Positions 2,380 through 15,192 of a stretch of DNA of 22,219 bases are shown in pieces. Under the pieces are notes generated by a model. It did not search any database, had not been told where the DNA came from, and saw only the letters and a program-made list of their open reading frames with translations. Positions within the stretch are counted from its first letter, which is position 1, and each line of letters opens with the position of its first letter. Location: IMG/VR virus record IMGVR_UViG_3300042691_014303, positions 1-22,219 of that record; one strand, 5' to 3'. The translations under genes were made by a program, and so were the position numbers. Source of the DNA: a virus.

Positions 2380-2601
2380 TTATGACTTTCTAGGTAAAAG
2401 TAATGCTATTTCATCAGAATCATCAGCAACTACTTCTAAAAATTCTCCATCCCACCATTTATCTTGTTTGTGCTTATTTTTAACTATAGGAACTAAATGA
2501 ATAGAATCAACCTCATCATAACCACCCTCATAACCTTGCACAACTACACGTTTTTGGGGGTCTTCCAACGTAAGACGTTCAATTAATTCTTTAACTTTCA
2601 T
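2380..2601 (-). CDS. Small phage/plasmid accessory protein (EGGYD motif)
   Basis: A 73-residue protein beginning MKVKELIERLTLEDPQKRVV, followed by VQGYEGGYDEVDSI. The pattern 'tVkELIekLq..dPd..VvvqGYEGGyd' occurs in short conserved proteins of phages and plasmids. It overlaps the RNA ligase gene by 11 nt and is translated from the same message. Function unknown. Confidence 0.7.
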   Translation of the reverse strand: MKVKELIERLTLEDPQKRVVVQGYEGGYDEVDSIHLVPIVKNKHKQDKWWDGEFLEVVADDSDEIALLLPRKS

Positions 2602-3682
2602 GGTTTAATTTTTGTGTTATTAATTTTATCCATTGTATTCTAGATATTTGTTTATTATCCAATATAGAAAACGCATATGATGAATTTTCATGATAATTTC
2701 TTTTAATCATTTCCGCTTGCTCTTTCCTAGATTCTACTTTTCTAATATCATGGACCATTTCCAATATATTGTCAATATATTTTTTTACGCTATCGCCAGC
2801 ATTACAAATTTTTTCTATTTCATCTTTTAATTGTAATGCTATCTCAAAATCAAAATCTGATTCTATTTTTTTATAGAACTCTTCGCATGATGGCATTTCA
2901 GAGTCAACATAATATTCAATTAAGTTGTTTTGTGAGTTCAATTGTGATTTAACTCTATGACAAAATAAATACCAATCAGATTTTAATTTGATTCTGTTCT
3001 GGCCATTATTATATGATACAACAATTCCCTCTTTACCTTTCCAATATTTTATAGTTTCTGCTATTTTAGAAAGATCATTAGTATCTAGGAAGTTATATGA
3101 TTGCGGCGTTGGGATAGGCCCAATCTTTCTCCATATATCAATCAAATCAGACGAAGAAACAACACACATTCCGTTTTTGTTTATAGCACCAATAAAATAG
3201 AATTCTATTTGTTGTGGTCTAACAACAATAACATTATTGGGTGTTACTATTTCAAACAAAAGACTAATGTGTGAGTTTTCTTTTAAGAACTCGACTACCT
3301 TTTGGTATTTTTCTGGTAACAATTCAAAATCTTTAGCATTCTCTTGTGATGAATAAGAAACCGTACCTCTTGTTCTCATTGAGAACTTATCATTAACATA
3401 ATCTGCTATAAGAAGAGAACCATCTATCTTATCTTCTATCTTCCAATCGTTAAAATCCTCTGGGTTTGGATAACATTCTGGTTTTTCTCCATAGTTAAAA
3501 AACTTCGGAAAACCAGAAGATAAAACATTACCTTCTTTGTCCGTAATTAAAGAACGATAAAACAAGTTGTTCTGATTCCACTTTGCGTCAATTTCTGGAG
3601 TTATTAAATAACTATCCAAACCACAAAACTTATTTGGAATAATATTAAAATATTCTTCTTTTAATGGAAGTTTTATTTTCAT
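2591..3682 (-). CDS. T4 Rnl1-type RNA ligase
   Basis: A 363-residue protein, close to T4 RNA ligase 1 (374). Nucleotidyltransferase motifs appear in order. GFPKFFNYGE (58-67) precedes motif I, K85-I-D-G-S, with the adenylated lysine at 85. Motif III is LLFEIV (141-146), motif IV KGKEGIVV (215-222) and motif V RIKLKSDWY (230-238). The helical C-terminal region (about 245-363) would correspond to the Rnl1 tRNA-recognition domain. In T4, Rnl1 with polynucleotide kinase reseals tRNA cut in the anticodon loop by host nucleases; no kinase gene is visible here. The family call is strong; the substrate is inferred. Confidence 0.9.
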   Translation of the reverse strand: MKIKLPLKEEYFNIIPNKFCGLDSYLITPEIDAKWNQNNLFYRSLITDKEGNVLSSGFPKFFNYGEKPECYPNPEDFNDWKIEDKIDGSLLIADYVNDKFSMRTRGTVSYSSQENAKDFELLPEKYQKVVEFLKENSHISLLFEIVTPNNVIVVRPQQIEFYFIGAINKNGMCVVSSSDLIDIWRKIGPIPTPQSYNFLDTNDLSKIAETIKYWKGKEGIVVSYNNGQNRIKLKSDWYLFCHRVKSQLNSQNNLIEYYVDSEMPSCEEFYKKIESDFDFEIALQLKDEIEKICNAGDSVKKYIDNILEMVHDIRKVESRKEQAEMIKRNYHENSSYAFSILDNKQISRIQWIKLITQKLNHES

Positions 3683-10049: not shown

Positions 10050-10170
10050 CTGACGAGGTAGGATTCGAACCTACGACCAATCGGTTAATCTCGGAGATAC
10101 GAGAATCGAACTCGAATTACGTCACCTACTTCTCCCACAGCCGATCGCTCTACCACTGAGCTACTCGTCA
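10050..10170 (-). tRNA. tRNA-Asn (GUU) interrupted in the anticodon loop
   Basis: The outer parts form a canonical tRNA-Asn: acceptor TGACGAG/CTCGTCA with discriminator G, D-arm GCTCAGTGGTAGAGC, anticodon stem ATCGG/CCGAT, T-arm GTAGG-TTCGAAT-CCTAC. Removing 49 nt (10089-10137) restores the loop CTGTTAA with anticodon GTT and a 72-nt body. As written the gene is 121 nt with no readable anticodon. The break is after G34, or one base later since the junction base is ambiguous. It needs precise removal and ligation to work; otherwise it is a broken gene. Confidence 0.85.
10089..10137 (-). other. 49-nt insert in tRNA-Asn with tRNA-like acceptor/T-arm fold
   Basis: On the minus strand the insert reads from TGGGAGAAG to CTCCGAGA. 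Inside, GGAGA pairs with TCTCC, and CGAG-TTCGATT-CTCG forms a T-arm with the standard TTCRANY loop. That is a tRNA minihelix lacking D- and anticodon arms. It is far too short for a group I intron. It could be a fragment of a second tRNA gene inserted by recombination, or an unusual self-structured intron. Confidence 0.7.
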
Positions 10171-10461: not shown

Positions 10462-10514
10462 TTAGAATATGTGCAATAGATCGAGTCATACTTGAACTAT
10501 TGCACATATTCTAA
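10462..10514. repeat. 18-bp perfect inverted repeat after the tmRNA 3' end
   Basis: TTAGAATATGTGCAATAG (10462-10479) and its exact reverse complement (10497-10514) flank a 17-nt loop. It begins 5 nt beyond the tmRNA CCA in the direction of transcription. There is no clear T-tract, so a simple intrinsic terminator is doubtful; an RNA-processing hairpin or a protein-binding site fits as well. The remaining 113 nt (10349-10461) up to the tRNA show only weak short inverted repeats. Confidence 0.8.
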
Positions 10515-10519
10515 TCAAA

Positions 10520-10944
10520 TGGTGGAGATGACGGCATACGATAGCCGTGTCCAATGAACTTTCATTTCACAATTCTTCACATGTTTGGATATTTTCGATA
10601 TTATAAGGATATCATAGTATATCTACTTTCCTACAAATAGTAACGACATTTGTTATCGTGGATAATTTTATATTACATTGAAGCTACCCGACAACCCAAA
10701 ACCCTCTGCGATTCAAAACGGAGTTAGAGGATTACCGTTAGGCTTTTAGGCGGCGAGAGCGTAAGACTCTTCTTCAATGCCACCGAGGAACTCGTCAGCG
10801 TTGTTGAAGATGTATTCAGCTTCGGCTAAAAGATCAGACATATCATCGTCTGCATTTAGTTTTCAATCGATTTTTTAGAAGGCCATCGATTAACCTTCAC
10901 ATGCATTGTGGAATTAGAATCCAAAGTCGAATCCTTTCATCCCC
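10520..10944 (-). ncRNA. ssrA: tmRNA (transfer-messenger RNA), phage-encoded
   Basis: A complete one-piece tmRNA of 425 nt on the minus strand. The 5' end GGGGATG pairs with 3' CATCTCC, followed by ACCA, and G3-U70, the alanyl-tRNA synthetase identity pair, is present. GGATTCGACTTTGG matches the conserved tmRNA 5' D-like region. P2 forms from CACAAT and ATTGTG. An H-type pseudoknot (GAAGG/CCTTC at 10878-10898 and AATCGAT/ATCGATT at 10865-10891) ends 11 nt before the resume codon, as expected for PK1. A second pseudoknot follows the tag (AACGG/CCGTT and CCTCT/AGAGG, 10703-10739). The T-loop is unusual (TATCGTAT, 8 nt, not TTCRANY). It would rescue stalled ribosomes and tag nascent chains for proteolysis. 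Confidence 0.95.
10746..10853 (-). CDS. tmRNA tag reading frame (35 residues)
   Basis: Read on the minus strand from the GCA resume codon at 10853 the frame is open for 35 codons to TAA at 10748-10746. It begins ADDDMSDLLAEAEYIF and ends GGIEEESYALAA. The YALAA ending is the degradation signal recognised by ClpXP-type proteases on ssrA-tagged proteins. Typical tags are 8-20 residues, so this is long and strongly acidic. The resume codon is set by its distance from pseudoknot PK1; it has no ATG or ribosome-binding site, as expected. Confidence 0.88.
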   Translation of the reverse strand, partial: ADDDMSDLLAEAEYIFNNADEFLGGIEEESYALAA

Positions 10945-10995
10945 ATAAATTTTTCAAAGATCAGTTATTCGATATGTCGAATATTTATTGTGTAT

Positions 10996-11058: not shown

Positions 11059-11409
11059 TTAATTAAATTCCAAATTCCATTCTGGTAATTGGGGAAGGTC
11101 ACACTTCTTCCAGTATCCAAGATAACCTTCTCTACCGCTTAACCTTTTACTATGTTTTGGGTCATATGGTTTGATGTACCACATCATACCTTTATATGGA
11201 GAAATAAACGTCTCTCCCATTTTGTGAACAACGGGAACACAGTGTAATTCTTTTTGCGCTGGTTTATCTAAAATTGCTCCATATGTCACATCACCATAAA
11301 ACCACCACCACCCCAAGCTATCAGGAGCATCTTTCCAGTCACTATTATTTTCTTTTAAAATAGTTACACTATAAGCTTCAGCTAGGAGTTGTTGATCTTT
11401 GCTTTTCAT
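11059..11409 (-). CDS. Head-tag family protein (MKSKDQQLLAE N-terminus)
   Basis: A 116-residue protein. Residues 1-20 are the shared tag: MKSKDQQLLAEAYSVTILKE, with LAE at 9-11 and LKE at 18-20. The body is small, aromatic and unrelated to the other tagged proteins (DSLGWWWFYGDVTYGAIL; KGMMWYIKPYD). By analogy with T4 internal head proteins the tag could direct the protein into the prohead and be removed after L/I-x-E. The ATG overlaps the stop of the next upstream gene by 4 nt. Confidence 0.75.
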   Translation of the reverse strand: MKSKDQQLLAEAYSVTILKENNSDWKDAPDSLGWWWFYGDVTYGAILDKPAQKELHCVPVVHKMGETFISPYKGMMWYIKPYDPKHSKRLSGREGYLGYWKKCDLPQLPEWNLEFN

Positions 11410-11654
11410 TTTAGAATTTCTTCCACAAATGCTGGCATATTATGACTACCAAAATCTTTCAATATAATTTTAATTGCATTTGCCAATGTTTTATAATTCA
11501 TTTCGGGATTAATTACATTTATATTTTTTTCAATATAGTCAGCAAGAGTTTGTGCTTCGATCATTTGTTCTTTAGTCAAAGGTTCGTCTTTTGTTTGTTG
11601 GGTATAGATGTTTTCTACCAAAGTCTCCAATAAAATTTGATCTTTGCCTTTCAT
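11406..11654 (-). CDS. Head-tag family protein (MKGKDQILLE N-terminus)
   Basis: An 82-residue protein starting MKGKDQILLETLVENIY, the shared tag with Gly for Ser at position 3 and a possible second cleavage motif at L12-V13-E14. The rest is a helical domain (KEQMIEAQTLADYIEKNINV; TLANAIKIILKDFG). Body unrecognised. Part of a five-gene tagged run and translationally coupled to the next gene. Confidence 0.75.
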   Translation of the reverse strand: MKGKDQILLETLVENIYTQQTKDEPLTKEQMIEAQTLADYIEKNINVINPEMNYKTLANAIKIILKDFGSHNMPAFVEEILK

Positions 11655-11657
11655 AAA

Positions 11658-12089
11658 TTAATGTCCGTAATTATAACCAAAATATGCTTTTCTTCCACTA
11701 GTAAGATTTGTTGGAATTTCTTTGTTGTCTGCATATCCACAGCATCCCTGATCTTTTATTTTGTTATAAAGACTTTCTGTTTTTGGATCTCCAACAAAAG
11801 CCATTCTTAGATTGTCAGAATACTCGTCTTTTTCCATATATTTATGAGCATATGAAATAGCATCCCTTCCAAATGTTTTTATCATATAATGATAATATCC
11901 ATTATATGTTGAAAGATCTTGTTCTGAATCATCTTCTAAATTTCTTGGATCTTCATCTTCTGGAAATTCTTCTCCCATACCAACTTTTGAAAGTTCTTCC
12001 ATTTCTGGATCATTGGGTTGAAACTTTTCATTTTCTGATAAAGTTTTTAAGTATGCTTCTTCCAACAATATTTGATCTTTTGATTTCAT
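11658..12089 (-). CDS. Head-tag family protein (MKSKDQILLEEAYLKTLSE)
   Basis: A 143-residue acidic protein. Tag residues 1-19 end in L17-S18-E19. Residues about 20-60 are Glu/Asp/Pro-rich and probably disordered (DPEMEELSKVGMGEEFPEDE). The C-terminal part (GYYHYMIKTFGRDAISYAHK) looks folded. Domain function not recognised. The tag call is the main evidence for its role. Confidence 0.75.
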   Translation of the reverse strand: MKSKDQILLEEAYLKTLSENEKFQPNDPEMEELSKVGMGEEFPEDEDPRNLEDDSEQDLSTYNGYYHYMIKTFGRDAISYAHKYMEKDEYSDNLRMAFVGDPKTESLYNKIKDQGCCGYADNKEIPTNLTSGRKAYFGYNYGH

Positions 12090-12093
12090 TTAA

Positions 12094-12630
12094 TTACATT
12101 AATCCTCTTCTTTGAGCCTCTGCTTTTAAACCTGCTAAAAGGGTAGCACCCATAAATGAAGCTACTGTTTTTTCTTTTTCTTTTATTTGTTTTAGAAGTT
12201 CTTCATCTGAAGTTTTTTCTATTCCAGAAATTTTTGATCTTTTTCCCAATTCATCGGCATCTAGGGTTCTTCTTCTTGCTACACTTCCCGGTGGTGTTGA
12301 GTCTGGTGTTATATCATTAATATCAACTGCATCATGTACATTGTAAGGAGGCTTACTATAATCATCATCATAATCCCATCCTTCCCATTTAAATTTTACG
12401 TCCTTTGGAATTTCTTTTATGCTTTCATCTCCATAAAATTGAAAAAGCCAATTTTTTAATGCTTCTTCTTTTGTGTGTCCAATTCCGGTTGTATAAATAT
12501 CGTTATGTTCTCTTCTGTTTTTATATTTAGGATTTGCTCTGGTATTATAATGTCCCACTAATCTATATCCTTCTTTTAAAACTTTTTTAGAATATATGCT
12601 CTCCAACAATATTTGATCTTTTGATTTCAT
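12094..12630 (-). CDS. Head-tag family protein (MKSKDQILLESIYSKKVLKE)
   Basis: A 178-residue protein with the tag at 1-20 (LLE at 8-10, L18-K19-E20). Residues about 20-60 (GYRLVGHYNTRANPKYKNRR, then YTTGIGHTKEEALKNW) look like a small alpha/beta fold. The C-terminus (DEELLKQIKEKEKTVASFMG) is helical. Function unknown. First gene downstream of the ncRNA locus. Confidence 0.75.
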   Translation of the reverse strand: MKSKDQILLESIYSKKVLKEGYRLVGHYNTRANPKYKNRREHNDIYTTGIGHTKEEALKNWLFQFYGDESIKEIPKDVKFKWEGWDYDDDYSKPPYNVHDAVDINDITPDSTPPGSVARRRTLDADELGKRSKISGIEKTSDEELLKQIKEKEKTVASFMGATLLAGLKAEAQRRGLM

Positions 12631-12646
12631 ACAAATATACTTACAA

Positions 12647-12680
12647 TAAAAAAATTAAAAACCAGAAAGTTCTTCATTGG
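12647..12680 (-). terminator. Probable terminator of the ncRNA at 12653-12884
   Basis: On the minus strand a weak hairpin (CCA-bulge-GAAG, loop AAC, TTTC-TGG; 12662-12680) is followed by TTTTTAATTTTTTT. The stem is short, but the T-tract is strong and the placement is right. Confidence 0.45.
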
Positions 12681-12884
12681 CTACCGAGTTGTGATCCCGT
12701 TGGACGAAGAAAACTTGTTACCCTCTGCCTAATCGAGTCTGGTTGATAGGTCCGCAACGGTTAGCTTTTTAAGAACAGCACAGCACACCATTCCCGTCCG
12801 ACTCTATCTAATTTCAAAAATCAATTTCCGATTTTGTATTCGTGAATCGTCATCCACCTATTGGATCATCGGGAACCAACTCTT
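12653..12884 (-). ncRNA. Unassigned structured ncRNA candidate
   Basis: A roughly 230-nt gene-free stretch, clearly higher in GC than its surroundings, between a consensus-like promoter (12891-12919) and a T-rich terminator (12647-12680), all on the minus strand. Possible helices: CCGTT-GC-GGAC with GTCC-AACGG (9 bp); TGATCC with GGATCA; GAGTTG with CAACTC near the two ends; TTCCCG with CGGGAA; and a GAGTC/GACTC pairing that would be a pseudoknot. No long ORF on either strand. It does not show the conserved elements of RNase P RNA, SRP RNA, tmRNA or a group I intron that I could test by eye. A 6S-like regulator or a new phage RNA is possible. Confidence 0.6.
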
Positions 12885-12890
12885 ATAAAT

Positions 12891-12919
12891 ACTATATATT
12901 TACTTTATAAAAATGTCAA
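12891..12919 (-). promoter_or_regulatory. Strong predicted promoter of the ncRNA
   Basis: On the minus strand TTGACA (12914-12919), a 17-nt AT-rich spacer and TATAGT (12891-12896): a full -35 match and 5 of 6 at -10. Predicted start near 12884. It sits immediately after the stop of the upstream gene. Confidence 0.7.
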
Positions 12920-13345
12920 TTACTTTCCTCTAGGAATTAATTCTAAACCTTCTTGTTCTGCTGTTCCGTTCATGAACTTATTTAAAGTATCAGAATCTAA
13001 ATTAAACCTAGTTGCGAGCGAAGAATCTTTTGATTTTCTTGAAACGCCAGCAGGAAGACCTAATTTAATATAATTTAAAATATCTTGCTCTGTCATTCCA
13101 CCCCTACCCCAATTCATTGTAGCTACATATTCTTTTGTTTCTGGATCTACGAAACTATAGCTGTACCAAATATCATCTTCCTCTTCATTTCTTTCAATCT
13201 TTAATTTTGCTTTTCTACCCAAAACATCAAATACTTGGTTTGATAATCTGGAATTAGGTTCGGATGAATCATCTCCGAACGATAATGATTCTTTTATAAC
13301 TTTAGAATATATTTGTTCTAATAGAATTTGATCTTTGCTTCTCAT
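12920..13345 (-). CDS. Head-tag family protein (MRSKDQILLEQIYSKVIKE)
   Basis: A 141-residue protein with the tag at residues 1-19 (LLE 8-10; I17-K18-E19) followed by a Ser-rich linker. The body (LGRKAKLKIERNEEEDDIWY; YVATMNWGRGGMTEQDI) looks like a compact alpha/beta domain, then a helical C-terminus (DSSLATRFNLDSDTLNKFMN). No family recognised. Starts 1 nt after the stop of the gene at 13347. Confidence 0.75.
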   Translation of the reverse strand: MRSKDQILLEQIYSKVIKESLSFGDDSSEPNSRLSNQVFDVLGRKAKLKIERNEEEDDIWYSYSFVDPETKEYVATMNWGRGGMTEQDILNYIKLGLPAGVSRKSKDSSLATRFNLDSDTLNKFMNGTAEQEGLELIPRGK

Positions 13346-14181: not shown

Positions 14182-15192
14182 TTAGTCTTTATAGTTTCTA
14201 TTGATGAGTTTAAAACCTAAAGGTCGGCGAGATTCAAATGATCTTGGATAAGAAGATGGACGAACTACTATTCCTTCACCAACTAGTCCACTATCGTATC
14301 TTTGTTTATCAGCCAACTCTTGAAGTTTCTGTAGAGGATTCTCCCATAATTTTATCGTAGATGCAACCTCTAATTTTGCAATTAATGGAACAATGTCACA
14401 TTGGAGTTCATTCTTACAAAAATTTTCCATTGCTTCATAATCCATATAACCATCATCAGTCTTAATCTGAAACACATATATTTTGTTGTCGATGAGTTTC
14501 ATTGGATTCTTTTGTATTCCATTACCAACCATCTCACCTTGAATTGTTCCACTCCAACCTTCTGGTATGTTTAATTTTCTGGCACACCGCCAGAACAATG
14601 ACTGCTCAGTGTCTTTCTTTGAAAGATTTCTACTACAGACTTGAGTTATAGCACCGTCTTCTACAACAACTGTAATGCTACTACCATCCAACTTTTGAGT
14701 TATTGTTATATAACTATCTGTTTCCAGTACTTTTGCTACAAGGTTTGGATCATTTAATCCGTTATCTTCATCGGTTTTAGATATCAAATGTGTTGGGAAT
14801 GATCCTGCATCTTCACCAGAAAGATTTGCAGGAATTTCTTTTATATATTTTGTAATACCCAAAATTTCAGTTACATCATCACCCACTTGCAATTGTCGTA
14901 TTTGATCGTCGAAGTCGGCAATAGGAATAACCAAACCAGAACTATATTCGCCACGAAGTTTGATATTTTTTATTCTTATTTGTTTATCTGGATTTTTTTT
15001 ATCTACCAAAAATCCAAACCAATTAGTATTGGGGACTATACTATCAATCGTAATGAATACAACTTTATCTCCTTCTTTATGTATTCCTGTTTTTACGATT
15101 GTTTGCCAACCTAATACCTCGGCAATATCCAAAGAATCAGCATTAGGATGATTGCGTATGTTTTTGATAATTTCTACTGATGCTAGTTTCAT
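14182..15192 (-). CDS. RNA ligase, DRB0094 (Rnl5-like) family
   Basis: A 336-residue protein. An N-terminal OB-like domain (residues 1-110: ASVEIIKNIRNHPNADSLDI; VLGWQTIVKTG; GDKVVFITIDS; LRGEYSSGLVIP) precedes the ligase domain. This order is typical of the Deinococcus DRB0094 ligase family. Motif I is TQKLDGSS with K167 as adenylation site, motif III QGEMVGNG (E220), motif IV GEGIVVRP (305-312) and motif V GFKLINRNY with K328. DraRnl-type enzymes seal 3'-OH/5'-PO4 nicks, preferring RNA on the 3'-OH side. Distinct in class from the ligase at 2591. Confidence 0.92.
   Translation of the reverse strand: MKLASVEIIKNIRNHPNADSLDIAEVLGWQTIVKTGIHKEGDKVVFITIDSIVPNTNWFGFLVDKKNPDKQIRIKNIKLRGEYSSGLVIPIADFDDQIRQLQVGDDVTEILGITKYIKEIPANLSGEDAGSFPTHLISKTDEDNGLNDPNLVAKVLETDSYITITQKLDGSSITVVVEDGAITQVCSRNLSKKDTEQSLFWRCARKLNIPEGWSGTIQGEMVGNGIQKNPMKLIDNKIYVFQIKTDDGYMDYEAMENFCKNELQCDIVPLIAKLEVASTIKLWENPLQKLQELADKQRYDSGLVGEGIVVRPSSYPRSFESRRPLGFKLINRNYKD

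Follow-up and report, generated by a model that had tools for sequence, protein, structure and literature searches.

The viral contig of 22 kb analysed here (22,219 nt, the whole stretch being called the window) carries a tmRNA gene that is of the ordinary kind and has two unusual traits: its tag is long and conserved, and its elbow, i.e. the pair of D-loop and T-loop, has been exchanged for a different type. From comparisons across a family of uncultured phages we consider it probable that this gene specifies a working one-piece tmRNA that would act via host factors, with a tag combining a degron and a helix, and with one of three swapped elbow types.

A preliminary description had placed a phage tmRNA at positions 10520–10944 and named a covariance-model scan as the check. 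The scan bore this out: Rfam family RF00023 matched over its full length (model positions 1–374 of 374) with 85.2 bits and an E value of 4.7e-32, compared to a curated cut-off of 47 bits. ARAGORN, run on the window, did not report the tmRNA gene. The gene and its flanks contain the following features:

10520..10944, minus strand: one-piece tmRNA gene, CCA encoded, 425 nt (RF00023, 85.2 bits, E 4.7e-32)
10952..10963, minus strand: boxA-like motif TGATCTTTGAAA, just upstream of where the mature RNA begins
10926..10937, minus strand: short D-loop AAAGGATTCGAC, present in the phage family whenever the T-loop is TATCRTAN
10865..10898, minus strand: pseudoknot PK1, GAAGG/CCTTC plus AATCGAT/ATCGATT, with compensatory changes in relatives
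10749..10853, minus strand: tag reading frame ADDDMSDLLAEAEYIFNNADEFLGGIEEESYALAA, 35 codons, resume codon GCA at 10853
10746..10748, minus strand: tag stop codon TAA, read from the sequence
10703..10739, minus strand: post-tag pseudoknot PK2, AACGG/CCGTT plus CCTCT/AGAGG, directly after the stop codon
10531..10548, minus strand: T-arm ACGGC-TATCGTAT-GCCGT with an 8-nt loop, stem kept by compensatory changes
10468..10515, no strand assigned: 16-bp inverted repeat (hairpin) just downstream of the tmRNA gene, a candidate terminator or processing site

The acceptor stem comprises 7 bp (GGGGATG/CATCTCC) with a G3-U70 pair and is followed by ACCA, consistent with charging by alanine. This pair, a PK1 separated from the GCA resume codon by an 11-nt spacer and a post-tag pseudoknot had been described before, and all three were located on the minus strand; the resume codon specifies alanine, which together with glycine is the residue expected at this point. 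An arrangement like that of PK2 was recognized by eye in relatives. The T-stem varies among them as ACGGC/GCCGT, TCGGC/GCCGA, CCGGC/GCCGG and ACGAC/GTCGT, hence by compensatory changes. The halves of the gene stand in the standard order, unlike in a permuted gene with the 3′ T-arm half upstream of the 5′ half, and an Rfam scan found no group I intron in the T-loop. A decayed gene was ruled out by the selection acting on the tag and by the maintenance of T-stem and PK1 through compensatory change.

Relatives were gathered via the RNA ligase encoded at 14182–15192, plus tmRNA and tag patterns. The core of the tag was present at 113 loci, representing 73 distinct tmRNAs, in uncultured T4-like phages of roughly 200 kb. 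A strong T4 gp23-like capsid gene was found in four of the largest contigs (195–217 kb) and a weaker one in a fifth (G004); the closest cultured capsids are ~34% identical. Complete Rfam matches in the relatives checked scored 85–153 bits, with lower values for a divergent fragment (L309, 54.8 bits) and for L035 (76.5 bits). No SmpB gene was found in 12 phage contigs, which may be incomplete, and dependence on the host SmpB is therefore taken by default. A ClpP-like protein was present in G009 only and a Clp ATPase in G001 only, therefore no shared phage protease is apparent. The window encodes two RNA ligases on the minus strand (2591–3682 and 14182–15192; one T4 Rnl1-like plus another), a pair that suggests RNA repair near the tRNA/tmRNA cluster.

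The tag frame of 35 codons reads ...ESYALAA before the TAA stop codon, in agreement with the 35-residue tag ending in YALAA described before. The count of 10 acidic residues among the first 21 has to be corrected: Asp and Glu make up 8 of these 21 residues and 11 of the 35 overall. Across the 73 distinct tmRNAs the tag is 31–45 aa long, at or above the usually quoted range of 8–35 (PMC8012679; PMC3968760). It contains a near-invariant core LLAEAExIFNN (L-A-E-A-E-x-I-F-N-N), and the C-terminus is almost always hydrophobic-AA. Among 47 distinct nucleotide versions of the core, pN/pS was 0.22 in frame vs 1.6 and 2.6 in the shifted frames, and the differences per site were 0.43 at third codon positions vs 0.13 at second positions. 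Judged by this third-position bias and by a low pN/pS in this frame only, the tag core is selected as a protein. The long frame could also have been conserved through RNA structure alone, the true tag being shorter or untranslated. The coding regions of tmRNAs can overlap structure, and in the inspected relatives with a canonical (class-1) elbow ARAGORN called a shortened tag that starts later, at EAEYIFNN. We regard this explanation as highly improbable, given that variation at third positions is threefold that at second positions, that the pN/pS of 0.22 is confined to this frame and that a GCA or GCT resume codon is kept at a fixed position after PK1 in the relatives.

From 12 sequences, AlphaFold2 predicted a helix at tag residues 2–17 with a block mean pLDDT of 80–89, the remainder being less certain. 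No tmRNA with the tag core was obtained when the genomes of 84,980 bacterial and archaeal species were scanned twice. The first scan was empty; the single match to the core in the second came from a Bathyarchaeota MAG, lay within an ordinary protein and was rejected. The tag occurred in no record of INPHARED, the cultured-phage collection, and had no match in PHROGs and weak matches in the PDB (best E value 0.087); no binding partner of the tag helix was found. The long tag, proposed earlier to be phage-specific, has been maintained at the protein level in many phages and is absent from the bacterial tmRNAs scanned. It might redirect host proteolysis, as was also proposed. Its C-terminus has remained of the (A/L)LAA type, an indication that the usual proteases are used and that the conserved helix makes an additional interaction.

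Mollicute tmRNAs have long tags of 26–27 aa that are read by Lon, an earlier example of a lengthened tag that makes more than one contact to a protease; no sequence similarity between these and the phage tags was recognised, and the latter, in contrast, keep a hydrophobic-AA end. Apparent long basic tags ending in ...VARKSVARQLAAVA were noticed in the tmRNAs of L058, L073 and L136.

Three T-loop classes occur among the 73 distinct tmRNAs: TTCRANY (class 1, n = 49), TATCRTAN (class 2, n = 18, including the window) and GGCAGNN (class 3, n = 6). Each of them goes with its own D-loop, which is one nucleotide shorter in class 2 and has AG in place of GG in class 3, and the two loops co-change across the relatives. 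The T-loop TATCGTAT of the window had previously been called aberrant. It does consist of 8 nt and does not match the TTCRANY consensus, but it is neither decayed nor unique: TATCRTAN together with the D-loop AAAGGAWTCGAC recurs in 18 of the 73 distinct family tmRNAs and in many two-piece viral tmRNAs. The TATCGTAT elbow was also seen in another phage tmRNA, in L273 and L311, with a different long tag, AKAIANAVEAVKSVMTNVAEFFFAEEPCLMAA.

T-loop positions were numbered with the C of the generalized T-loop motif as the anchor of the alignment. D-loop positions 18–19 read AG in exactly those tmRNAs that have G at T-loop position 55 (6/6), and GG in those that have U there (67/67). Positions 54/58 are U/A, A/U or G/G, and the exposed tertiary pair formed by C at position 56 and G at position 19 (PMC4810234) is invariant. 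Reading the elbow base by base, we infer that A18-G55 takes the place of G18-U55 and A54-U58 that of U54-A58. An independent case is provided by the permuted viral tmRNA L315, which combines AG in the D-loop with the T-loop TGCAAT and has G at position 55. The class-2 pairing is preferred and not obligatory because hybrids exist (L240 and L287) with the class-2 short D-loop and a canonical class-1 T-arm; unrelated viral tmRNAs show the same combination. In L035, a D3 loop is found with an imperfect T-arm. ARAGORN missed all 24 members with a non-canonical elbow.

The D- and T-loop pair of the window is the pair of viral two-piece tmRNAs (RF04321, tmRNA_permuted), many of which have the D-loop AAAGGATTCGAC and the T-loop TATCGTAN; the class-2 elbow was found in viral two-piece tmRNAs on at least 11 contigs. 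Unlike these, the window gene is in one piece, with its halves ~370 nt apart, and has a long tag. By its sequence it is a tmRNA in one piece whose elbow is of the two-piece type. With the standard one-piece tmRNA (RF00023) it shares the G3-U70 acceptor, D-loop, PK1, alanine resume codon, LAA tag end, PK2 and CCA, whereas the 35-codon tag with its conserved helical core and the 8-nt T-loop set it apart. The alpha_tmRNA consensus (RF01849; T-loop GGCgGUA, D-loop AAAuAGGAUCGAC) is like class 3 (GGCAGNN/TAGAT). Phage-encoded tmRNAs have been reported for 402 of 18,146 phage genomes, with a two-piece form in phage Melnitz (PMC9004378). The window gene is likewise virus-borne and without an SmpB found in the phage, but differs from the known phage tmRNAs by a tag family without an INPHARED record and by the two-piece-type elbow on a one-piece molecule. 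One of the viral contigs with a two-piece tmRNA, L297, also carries many tRNAs and a GOLLD RNA (2524–2979, 175.8 bits).

A tmRNA tree was computed from the mRNA-like domain, leaving out both loops. On this tree the T-loop class changed 12 times and the D-loop 11 times, with supports that are rough since the bootstrap had not settled and with a topology that within-gene recombination can distort. D- and T-loops shifted together in 7–8 of 8 supported independent pairs and never oppositely (p ~0.008). The RNA-ligase tree, which is independent of the tmRNA, gave 9 class changes and almost no clustering by class. In the pair L040 (class 3, GGCAGAA) and L016 (class 1, TTCGATT), the sequences agree from the leader through almost the entire middle and the ligases are 95% identical, while the D-loop and the T-arm ~370 nt away differ. 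These comparisons support a repeated exchange of elbow types, both loops together, on a nearly unchanged mRNA-like core. That the new elbows arose by independent mutation is unlikely, since identical loops are found again on different backgrounds as well as in two-piece tmRNAs.

The exchange might serve as an escape from elements targeting the canonical T-loop, e.g. group I introns, with the D-loop following to keep the fold. Group I introns of 255–257 nt (RF00028, 81–83 bits) interrupt the T-loop after TTCAACT in the canonical-elbow relatives L187/L268 and L185 and are absent from the window gene. All 883 of 883 known tmRNA introns sit in the T-loop (PMC11915505), and the UUCAACU target is absent from the alternative loops. 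Two independent intron cases against 0 among 24 non-canonical elbows are, however, far too few, and in a rough motif scan no association between homing endonuclease genes downstream and the elbow class was visible; we consider escape possible but doubtful. Neutral recombination between phage tmRNA lineages, retained only with matching loops and bringing no special advantage, can be put forward tentatively as a plausible source. The hybrids L240 and L287 resemble half-exchanged intermediates, and the DNA downstream of the tmRNA gene is very variable, but the switches among close relatives are many (12 on the mRNA-like-domain tree) and both ends, ~370 nt apart, were replaced with the middle retained.

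It seems rather unlikely to us that the elbow tracks the host, with phages that switch hosts, e.g. to Alphaproteobacteria, adopting the elbow read by the local SmpB and tRNA enzymes. These phages apparently have no SmpB (12 contigs), SmpB binding requires the D/T-loop interaction (PMC3968760) and the alphaproteobacterial consensus, GGCgGUA together with AAAuAGGAUCGAC, is similar to the GGCAGNN/TAGAT type. Yet phages can differ in their elbow when their ligases are 95% identical and their mRNA-like domains almost the same, and so many jumps between host classes among close relatives seem unlikely. The elbow type is further related to the 3′ end: CCA is encoded in 24/24 genes with non-canonical vs 23/49 with canonical elbows (Fisher p 1.5e-6, ignoring relatedness), and with relatedness considered some 6 of the 8 independent pairs show the association (p ~0.03). 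The elbow is the point from which the CCA-adding enzyme measures (PMC4810234), and this would account for the encoded CCA next to a non-canonical elbow.

Upstream of the tmRNA, 53 of the 73 relatives contain TGNTCTTTGAAA with at most one mismatch (29 of them without any), mostly 14–20 nt from the gene, vs 2 of 1460 shuffled sequences. We take it to resemble boxA, the rRNA antitermination element, and this leader suggests an rRNA-type antitermination of the phage tmRNA. Reading the conserved upstream TTTG as the -7 promoter box of Bacteroidota was rejected, and the boxA-like reading fits better, because a G and not a T occupies position -4. The hairpin on the other side has a similar counterpart following the tmRNA of L240. 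Further downstream, at 10050–10170 (minus strand), the anticodon loop of a tRNA-Asn is interrupted by 48 nt resembling a truncated tRNA, with a short acceptor pairing and a T-arm CGAG-TTCGATT-CTCG. This insert was found only in the window/L002 lineage, the gene being uninterrupted in L003 and L182, and RNA folding showed no unusual stability. At 11059–13345 (minus strand), several small ORFs begin with similar residues, M(K/R)(S/G)KDQ.LLE..Y; this N-terminal motif might be a leader or targeting sequence common to them.

In the model that we favour, the window tmRNA would act through the host's SmpB, alanyl-tRNA synthetase and proteases. During infection it would rescue stalled ribosomes and append 36 residues (Ala plus the 35 encoded). 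The last tag residues would constitute a ClpXP-type degron, and the helix LLAEAExIFNN(A)DEFL could be a second recognition element for docking to an adaptor or protease; its location would correspond to that of the SspB-binding part of the E. coli tag. The 8-nt T-loop would pair with the matching short D-loop as one of three interchangeable elbow types, swapped repeatedly while the C56-G19 tertiary pair was kept possible. The likeliest pressures on the elbow would be mobile elements that target the T-arm, such as group I introns, or matching to the host SmpB. A more far-reaching version, in which matched loop pairs acquired from two-piece lineages give immunity to T-loop invaders and the helical tag docks on a protease adaptor, we judge improbable.

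Phage tmRNA counts based on ARAGORN are likely too low, because 24/24 non-canonical members were missed and tags were shortened in the class-1 examples inspected. The coupled exchange of D- and T-loops is a natural experiment on the tertiary contacts needed by the tmRNA elbow, the possible readers of which include SmpB, EF-Tu and the CCA enzyme. A tag that behaves as a small conserved protein module, and not as a short degron, implies that the role of tmRNA in infection may exceed marking for ClpXP.
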